Shown here: one piece after another, positions 52,014 through 55,882 of the stretch
How the letters are laid out: every line of letters starts with the position of its first letter
Position numbering within the stretch: position 1 is the first letter of the stretch
NCBI GenBank assembly: GCA_029968055.1
Contig: JASCNX010000001.1
Location: 1,178,001 to 1,242,000, forward strand
Direction: 5' to 3'
Length of the DNA stretch: 64,000 bases
Source: Xenophilus aerolatus
GTDB taxonomy: Bacteria; Pseudomonadota; Gammaproteobacteria; Burkholderiales; Burkholderiaceae_C
The notes under the pieces: generated by a model
What the model saw: the letters and a program-made list of their open reading frames with translations, nothing else
Told to the model about the DNA's origin: nothing
Databases searched by the model: none
Made by a program: the position numbers and the translations under genes

Positions 52014-53102
52014 CTATGGATGCGACAGCTGCTCGTGCCCGCCTACCGGGCTCTGCGGCACGATCTGCGTTGAAGCTTCCAGCAGTTGGCGCGCTGCGGT
52101 GGAGGCCGGCAGCCGCCCGCTGCGCACCTCGTCGGTCAGGCGCGGCAGTTGCTCGCGCACGGCCGGGTGCTGGCGGAAGGCCTGGCGCAAGCCGGCCTCG
52201 ATGCGCTCCCACATCCAGGCCAGCGCCTGCTTCTCGCGCCGCACGGCAAGGCGGCCGTTGGCGGTCTGCAGTGCGCGGAATTCGCTCACCAGCGCCCAGA
52301 AGCGGTCGACGCCGGCGCCGGTGAGTGCGCTGAGCTGCATCACCTTCGGCAACCAGAAGCGCACCTCGGTGCCGGCATGCGCATCGTGCATCGCATGCAC
52401 ATGGTCCGGGTTGCCCTGGTGCCCGAAGAGGCGCAGCGCCGAGGTGATCTGCGCCTGCGCGCGCGTGGCGGCGTCCTTGTCGAGGTCGGCCTTGTTGATG
52501 ACCACCAGGTCGGCAATCTCCATCACGCCCTTCTTGATGGCCTGCAGGTCATCGCCCGCGTTGGGCAGCTGCAGCAGCACGAACATGTCGGTCATGCCTG
52601 CCACGGCCGTCTCGGACTGGCCCACGCCCACGGTCTCGACGATCACGACGTCGTAGCCGGCGGCCTCGCACACCAGCATCGCCTCGCGCGTCTTCTCGGC
52701 CACCCCGCCCAGCGTGCCCGACGACGGGCTGGGGCGGATGTAGGCGCCCTCGTGCACCGAGAGCTTCTCCATGCGCGTCTTGTCGCCCAGGATCGAGCCG
52801 CCCGAAACGGTGGAGGACGGGTCGATGGTGAGCACCGCCACGCGGCGCCCCTGCCCGATCAAGAACAGGCCCAGCGCTTCGATGAAGGTGGACTTGCCCA
52901 CGCCGGGAACGCCCGAGATGCCCAGGCGGAAGCTGTGCCCGGTGTGCGGCAGCAAGGCCGTGAGCAGTTCATCGGCCTGCGCGCGGTGGTCGGCGCGGGT
53001 GGATTCGAGCAGGGTGATGGTCTTGGCGATGGCGCGGCGCTGGGCCATGGGGGTGGCGGCGTGCAGGATGCCGTCGAGGTAGCCGATCTGCGCCGCAGTC
53101 AT
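52014..53102 (-). CDS. meaB: Methylmalonyl-CoA mutase-associated GTPase MeaB (ArgK)
   Basis: G3E GTPase that protects and reloads B12 on methylmalonyl-CoA mutase. It is 362 residues. The P-loop is [52 protein letters not shown] and [11 protein letters not shown] are further G motifs. The ATG overlaps the GIY-YIG stop (ATGA), and its GGGAGG ribosome site lies in the end of that gene, so a mobile-looking unit supplies the start context. Confidence 0.95.
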
Positions 53103-53512
53103 GGCACCTCCCGCAATGGCTGGCTATCTCCCAACCGTTCGGGCTGAGCTTGTCGAAGCCGGGGCGCGGTCCCTGCCTGCGGTGCATCCAGCCCTTCGAC
53201 AAGCTCAGGGCGAGCGGCTCGGGAGTTCGGGCCCGTGCGAGAACGTGCCAGTTCTTGAATCGCCGGCCAATCGCCACGAACCAGGGCTTCCTTCTTCGCC
53301 CGCGACCAACCCTTGACCCGCTGCTCGAAAGCAATCGCGCCCTCACGCGTCTCGAACTCGCCCTGCCACAGGAATTCGACCGGCTTGCGCGTCGCGGTGT
53401 AGCCGATCAAACCATCGCCGTGCTGCCGCATGCGCACGCCCAAGTCGTCGGTCTGGCCCACGTAGTACGAGCCGTCCGAACAGCGCAGCAGATAGACAAA
53501 AAAGGGTTTCAA
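53099..53512 (-). CDS. GIY-YIG nuclease domain protein inside an inverted-repeat unit
   Basis: A 137-residue protein. The GIY-YIG domain fills about residues 1-90: FFVYLLRCSDGSYYVGQTDDL, the Arg/His pair in VRMRQHG, GYTATRKPVEFLW and the catalytic Glu in AIAFEQRVKGWSRAKKEALV. These UPF0213-type small nucleases have no settled role. The remaining 45 residues are translated repeat DNA (ARPELVEG, LRQAQPERLG). The start is uncertain: TTG 53512 fits the family N-terminus but lacks a ribosome site. The stop overlaps the meaB start. The domain lies between perfect 24-bp inverted repeats. Confidence 0.75.
   Translation of the reverse strand: MKPFFVYLLRCSDGSYYVGQTDDLGVRMRQHGDGLIGYTATRKPVEFLWQGEFETREGAIAFEQRVKGWSRAKKEALVRGDWPAIQELARSRTGPNSRAARPELVEGLDAPQAGTAPRLRQAQPERLGDSQPLREVP
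53135..53217. repeat. REP pair (two inverted copies)
   Basis: Copies 53135-53158 and 53194-53217 face each other and can form a large hairpin in the transcript, just upstream of meaB on the minus strand. Both lie in the coding end of the GIY-YIG gene. Confidence 0.75.
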
Positions 53513-53530
53513 GCGACTGAAGCAGAAGGG

Positions 53531-53554
53531 CTTCGACAAGCTCAGCCCGAACGG
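53531..53554. repeat. REP copy upstream of the GIY-YIG gene
   Basis: Exact reverse complement of 53135-53158. It lies between the mcm stop and the GIY-YIG start region. Confidence 0.8.
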
Positions 53555-53586
53555 TGGAAATGGCTGGTGGTGATCGGAAGGCTGTG

Positions 53587-55746
<2,160 letters not shown>

Positions 55747-55882
55747 GGCGGCGCGTGCGGTGGCGGTGTGATGGAAAGTCGGGCGTGGCCCTCGTACGAG
55801 GCACGCCGGTGACGCCACCGGCAGCCTGCCGCAGCCAGCCGGCGAGCTTGCACGCCGCACCTGACCGAAGAGCCGCTGACGA

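Follow-up and report, generated by a model that had tools for sequence, protein, structure and literature searches.

The window, the whole 64,000-nucleotide stretch of the Xenophilus aerolatus genome that was analysed, carries a small GIY-YIG nuclease gene between mcm and meaB, with all three genes on the minus strand (Table 1). Since most relatives of the encoded protein begin with MKPFF or a similar N-terminus, the likely start of the gene is the TTG at 53512, which places the right-hand copy of the repeat discussed below outside the coding sequence, upstream of it. The stop codon overlaps the meaB start, as an earlier, sequence-only reading of this DNA had noticed, and the nuclease domain that it had named proved genuine: PF01541 was the sole match in a Pfam search of the window protein, which returned no HUH/Y1 transposase domain (PF01797), and the predicted structure of the domain (mean pLDDT 90) found its best matches among solved structures in UPF0213 proteins, Slx1 and the nuclease domain of UvrC. 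No NCBIfam or PHROGs family matched the window protein at the thresholds used, and a looser NCBIfam threshold gave only weak, below-cut-off matches for its family. The one other PF01541 match in the genome is uvrC. The GIY-YIG protein is under purifying selection (dN/dS 0.04–0.10 in 11 pairs).

Table 1 Features of the mcm–meaB region, with positions in the window.
Feature	Position	Strand	Remarks
mcm (methylmalonyl-CoA mutase)	53587..55860	-	Named from its sequence, no family search
REP upstream of gene	53529..53555	+	Tail GAACGG away from gene; perfect 27-nt inverted partner of 53134–53160; covarying stem
GIY-YIG nuclease gene	53099..53512	-	137 codons, TTG start, TGA stop; frame and start via relatives and PF01541
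GIY-YIG catalytic domain	53291..53503	-	PF01541, E 1.5e-14, residues 18–88 of the 151-residue frame
Inner REP, inside gene 3' end	53191..53217	+	Stem GCCCT/AGGGC instead of GGGCT/AGCCC
REP at gene 3' end	53134..53160	-	Tail towards meaB; tail-out pair with inner REP
ATGA overlap, GIY-YIG stop/meaB start	53099..53102	-	
meaB	52014..53102	-	Separate frame in window; Pfam MeaB in relatives

Inverted repeat copies bracket the gene, as had been claimed, but the perfect match extends over 27 nt rather than the 24 first reported; its arms lie 368 nt apart, and the unit of repeat, gene and repeat spans 422 bp. The inner copy (53194–53222 as aligned) is 83% complementary to the left copy over 29 nt, and the large hairpin proposed for these two copies held up, with an energy z-score of −3.61 and 1 of 200 shuffles equally good. 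The description of the protein's C-terminus as translated repeat was right in part: the last ~43 residues include two translated REPs, but repeat accounts for only about half of their length. Single 5-bp hairpins are unexceptional in energy (z −0.35 and 0.01), and their stems are backed instead by covariation across copies. In a set of 62 distinct copies fetched from the same genome and picked by their loop (which by itself makes the loop constant), positions 3 and 4 of the stem vary yet remain paired in 60 and 55 (shuffle means 38.8 and 27.6), and each of the six positions of the tail matches GAACGG in 52 to 59.

With its covarying stem of 4–5 bp, its loop of 11 nt, its GAACGG tail and the 135 copies of its core CTTCGACARGCTCAG in the genome (65 + 70, about one per 38 kb, with 0 + 0 in the control), the window repeat is a true REP. 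The shorter pattern TTCGACAAGCTCAG occurs in 20 + 20 exact copies, against 0 + 0 for the reversed control. No GTAG tag stands beside any of the three window copies, and the repeat also lacks the CGTC tag, 8–9 bp stem and CCA tail of another REP class. All three core copies in the 64-kb window lie at the GIY-YIG gene. Across the genome, neighbouring REPs within 120 bp of each other are inverted with tails outward in 25 of 29 pairs; the outer REPs of the gene are ordered in the same way, with the gene as filling. The REP consensus, read from its sequence, is open in five of six frames.

The pairing of gene and repeat recurs well beyond this genome. An even draw of 250 genomes from the family gave a domain match in 31 and a member of the close clade (56% identity or more) in 20, while a second draw covered 398 genomes of the phylum. 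When GIY-YIG genes were counted against REP copies, an intact clade gene was found in 17 of the 29 family-draw genomes with at least 20 REPs vs 3 of the 221 others (Fisher p 5e-16), and strong matches (E below 1e-25) in 14 of the 20 phylum-draw genomes with at least 10 REPs vs 13 of 378 others, the abundance cut-offs in both draws having been chosen after the tables were seen. REP abundance tracks the presence of the gene with exceptions, and the 12 of 29 REP-rich genomes that lack an intact clade gene indicate that REPs persist, or spread, in its absence.

Close linkage gives the same picture. In a species-level collection, the best 80 of at least 521 relatives (hereafter the best 80) carried the core TCGACRRGCTC within 130 bp of the gene in 66 cases; at the same distance it appeared in 1 of 68 and 0 of 56 displaced windows and at 0 of 26 Y1-transposase loci. 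Among the best 80 of at least 521, the two 300-bp flanks shared an inverted match of at least 12 nt at 58 loci (displaced windows, 0 of 60), a class motif flanked the gene on both sides at 54, and the nearest loop-pattern copies pointed tail-out on both sides at 38; within 200 bp, no loop pattern was found upstream at 23 of these 80 loci or downstream at 19. From this linkage, the repeat is most likely cognate to the window nuclease.

Repeat class also follows the gene. Paralogues within one genome carry different flanking hairpins, as in the two units of G590, and a class motif lay within 130 bp of the gene at 130 of 140 loci, a count that includes a loose class D motif and eight distant loci hand-picked for their repeats. 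On the gene tree, repeat class changed 19 times, vs at least 36 times in 200 shuffles (124 of the 140 loci, those with a single class). Repeat class and gene have evolved together, with near relatives contributing to the signal, and the clustering partly reflects shared ancestry and the hand-picked class D loci. A further hairpin class, with CCTCATCCTGAGG or CTTCGAG cores, was seen at L223, L224, L228–L230, L233, L235 and L236.

Units of the same make-up lie at unrelated loci and have defined ends, as expected of a mobile element. Of 26 gene pairs at separate loci with at least 85% (rounded) identity, many of them from metagenome assemblies in which misbinning is possible, 20 share neither flank, one shares one flank and five share both. 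In the best pair (L169/L182; 86% over 366 bp), the similar stretch begins at the outer edge of the upstream REP and stops 3 bp beyond the downstream one. Among the nine loci aligned, several other alignments stop inside the REPs, and that of L171 with L180 continues 30–40 bp beyond them; where measured between homologues, the unit is ~370 bp long. L139 and L156 share a locus but with their flanks swapped, which looks like an inversion of the unit between its repeats.

At the mcm–meaB junction itself, the gene is a long-standing resident and is not hopping. It occupies this junction at 19 of the 20 clade loci retrieved in the family draw, the exceptions to the site being L059 and a second copy in G116, and at 11 of the best 80 of at least 521 named loci, in hosts from the Comamonadaceae, unplaced Burkholderiales or betaproteobacterial assemblies and Aromatoleum tolulyticum; the other 69 named loci lie elsewhere or show no mcm or meaB in the DNA examined. 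Altogether the same junction holds the gene at 30 loci (two pairs are near-duplicates), and we therefore reject a recent hop into the mcm–meaB site of the window genome. One or two arrivals at mcm–meaB would both fit: the GIY-YIG genes of this junction were drawn as two clades, with a single clade in 0% of 200 bootstrap trees, but one origin was not rejected by an AU test (p 0.638), the one-clade tree having the better likelihood.

A landing between mcm and meaB, as the sequence-only reading had it, fits the gene-free junctions that were sought and found in relatives, though the residence just described makes the locus largely fixed for this family; the enrichment of REPs at related genes elsewhere is, by contrast, strong. 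MeaB was found in 45 genomes, and 30 loci were read. Two genomes of the window's own genus are telling: G177 has a mcm–meaB junction of 14 bp, with neither repeat nor gene, and G071 retains a truncated GIY-YIG gene and one REP. Nine of the 30 junctions measure ~490–1100 bp, and each of the six tested contains a GNAT gene (L240, L247, L257 and L266) or a PIN gene (L244 and L255), so the junction seems often to accept inserts. The mcm stop and meaB start overlap as GTGA in four of seven junctions read. No target-site duplication was seen at the mcm–meaB junctions, where the comparison sites are too highly diverged for one to be read.

The residents of this junction are often joined to their neighbour. 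The GIY-YIG frame continues into MeaB at 23 of the 30 mcm–meaB loci (two near-duplicate pairs included), through a connecting stretch of 28 to 215 residues that contains REP cores in 22 of the 23 fusions, L055 being the exception. The window, L131, L132 and L134 instead have an ATGA or GTGA overlap with meaB, and the two genes are separate at L049, L130 and L137. Of 101 units elsewhere (L157 and L269 are the same locus, and L233 is apparently no true fusion), 25 have a frame of at least 200 residues, nine overlap by 4 nt with a downstream frame of 100 codons or more, 64 are neither fused nor overlapping and three run off the locus. By eye, 17 of the 25 long frames enter one SpoU/TrmJ-like sequence. 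In each of the seven long frames tested (L141, L143, L153, L157, L181, L184 and L188), Pfam found a further domain beside GIY-YIG, namely a SpoU methylase, Prok-JAB, a pseudouridine synthase with S4 or a MaoC-like hydratase, and it confirmed a GIY-YIG and a second domain in two MeaB fusions as well. By partner, L143, L181 and ~15 others carry SpoU, L141, L157 and L188 JAB, L153 the pseudouridine synthase and L184 the MaoC-like domain.

Protein linkers made partly of translated REPs thus join the nuclease to unrelated housekeeping enzymes. Rickettsial palindromic elements are likewise translated in frame within proteins, whereas the repeats here supply linkers that connect a nuclease with a housekeeping protein. 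In the MeaB fusions at L052, L058 and L060, the linkers contain near-identical tandem repeats of translated REPs, as if an array had expanded. The units L272 and L275, in rnc–era and yqeY–dnaG junctions, overlap the following gene by ATGA just as the window gene overlaps meaB.

These observations suggest that the window gene belongs to a REP-associated GIY-YIG nuclease element analogous to REP/RAYT, a reading that we hold at a probability of about one half. A nuclease gene of ~100 codons would be bounded by inverted, tail-out REPs that its product most likely recognises, and the REP-gene-REP unit would have moved between loci and lineages over evolution, with single REPs and REP pairs as its non-autonomous counterparts, much as REPs are to RAYT genes. 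The nuclease may bind the REP hairpin on single-stranded DNA (the lagging strand or incoming DNA) and cut at or near the conserved tail, which would promote the copying or joining of REP-bounded pieces. In the lineage of the window, one copy would have become resident between mcm and meaB, where open REP frames could let the nuclease read on into the next gene, fused with it or ATGA-coupled; with such coupling, careless loss of the element would presumably harm meaB. The sequence-only reading had proposed a moving unit of REPs and nuclease: the recurrent pairing and the units at unrelated loci are in its favour, and the cutting and moving themselves are what we infer from them. Its comparison with REP/RAYT, using a different nuclease, is fair given the recurrence of the pairing, its tracking of REP abundance, the units at unrelated loci and the gene-free sites. 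What weighs most against a simple transposase is that 12 of 29 REP-rich genomes have no intact gene, that the gene has long resided at mcm–meaB and that no target duplication is visible.

As described by Nunvar 2010 (PMC2817692) and Di Nocera et al. 2013 (PMC3733652), REP/RAYT systems (REPtrons, REPINs) share with the units seen here a small nuclease gene between inverted REPs, a REP abundance that follows the gene, a repeat class that follows the gene tree and inverted REP pairs elsewhere in the genome. They differ in their HUH/Y1 domain, where a GIY-YIG domain is found here, and in their GTAG tag, where the window REP has a short stem, an 11-nt loop and a GAACGG tail. RAYTs are described as "always flanked" by REPs, and the GIY-YIG association is looser. 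Within the library searched, our literature search found no paper on a GIY-YIG/REP pairing, nor did one made with the repeat's own letters.

A site-specific single-strand nuclease of the Ssn type that acts on its repeats without transposing anything is a less probable but serious alternative. Chenal, Veyrier and colleagues, writing in Nature Communications in 2025, reportedly found that Ssn GIY-YIG nucleases cut single-stranded DNA at a repeat, one said to be present in hundreds of copies in Neisseria; the subject of that study was reportedly cutting and transformation. To our knowledge, it covers neither mobile units bounded by REPs nor fusions with housekeeping proteins. We take the window protein, a member of the GIY-YIG superfamily, to be a candidate for the Ssn kind and probably one of it; both have a small GIY-YIG protein tied to a many-copy repeat. 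Such an enzyme might act on its repeats in, for example, DNA uptake or repair, and gene and repeats would spread by horizontal transfer and repeat recombination. Purifying selection and long residence at one site fit an enzyme that serves its host. Against this, units of REP, gene and REP recur at unrelated loci and end at or close to their REPs, and others are inserted in operon junctions, all of which looks like an element; nor does this alternative by itself explain the multiplication of REPs.

It is improbable that a RAYT or IS transposase moves the REPs, with the GIY-YIG gene a passenger captured between them. Y1_Tnp genes are present in 26 of the 29 REP-rich genomes (REP-rich genomes alone were counted), and the absence of an intact clade gene from some of these genomes would be expected of a passenger. 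Yet the window REP was found within ~1.5 kb of Y1_Tnp at 0 of 30 loci (of 34 matches), unlike the RAYTs and REPs described in PMC2817692, and the repeat class follows the GIY-YIG tree. With no REP near Y1 loci, a RAYT is not favoured as the partner of the window REP. The sole Y1_Tnp gene of the window's own genome (L041, C4:401440-401766) lies in a 320-residue frame with no window REP within 1.5 kb.

Quite unlikely, too, is that the gene homes into pre-existing REP pairs that it does not itself carry. Free-standing GIY-YIG homing nucleases have a catalytic domain like the present one and can spread selfishly; here there is no intron and no allele-specific homing site, and a dispersed repeat is found instead. 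The rnc–era junction, a second case of sites lacking the unit, was surveyed in 61 genomes of one sphingomonad-like genus, of which 30 loci were read, with rnc not found in six of the 30. The gene occurs at seven of the 30, the junction is 11 bp or shorter at three (G682, G687 and G664), and one or two REP cores stand without the gene at five (G683, G653, G675, G685 and G695); these gene-free single or paired REPs may be targets for homing, or scars. The mcm–meaB junctions speak against homing, since none of the 14 of 30 that measure 90 bp or less holds an intact REP and one (G208) holds a single degenerate copy, so that the REPs at mcm–meaB come with the gene. Chance proximity, for which the commonness of REPs in this genome speaks, can be rejected, because three REPs lie in a 485-bp mcm–meaB junction where 0.013 would be expected and the pattern is missing from displaced windows and Y1 loci.

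Distant GIY-YIG genes extend the comparison to a second group of repeats. CGTC REPs are described in PMC3733652 as having a CGTC tag, a stem of 8–9 bp, a loop of 4–5 and a CCA tail, and the same paper reports no association with transposase genes and classes RPE-4 and RPE-6 among them. Like the window REP, they are non-GTAG repeats that form inverted dimers, sometimes inside genes and without a RAYT; their tag, stem length and tail set them apart from it. Since a loose CGTC motif (class D) also occurred in controls (10 of 68 and 11 of 56 displaced windows, 8 of 14 UvrC loci), a strict detector of the CGTC structure was built from the description in PMC3733652. An inverted match of at least 12 nt was absent at 53 of 60 distant loci, and of the seven that had one (L307, L317, L325, L328, L334, L335 and L341) the strict detector called L325 only, several others being CGTC-like by eye. 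Applied to 75 distant genes, with L337 of the 60 left out, the strict detector placed a CGTC REP beside 10 (3 of 59 in the phylum draw, 6 of 9 in the family draw and 1 of 7 others), on both sides in seven; it called 0 of the 80 named loci and 0 of 160 control items (61 + 59 displaced windows, 26 Y1 loci and 14 UvrC loci).

On these results, small GIY-YIG enzymes are good candidates for the machinery that a large group of bacterial repeats has lacked. The data name a concrete enzyme family for one non-GTAG REP class and, on fewer loci, for the CGTC REPs, which have been without an assigned enzyme since 2013 (PMC3733652). More tentatively, and with the odds somewhat against so broad a claim, small GIY-YIG nucleases might form a second, HUH-independent class of REP transposases, each subclade with its own REP class, CGTC included. 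Their units of ~370–480 bp would then be among the smallest self-mobile elements of bacteria, would favour operon junctions and would be protected from deletion by REP-encoded linkers to housekeeping proteins (MeaB, the SpoU methylase, the JAB protein, the pseudouridine synthase and the MaoC-like hydratase).

The CGTC-flanked genes (L062, L064, L065, L067, L068, L071, L075, L321, L325 and L343) form a second, distant GIY-YIG subfamily, often with the motif VYILAS..NGTLYVGVT.
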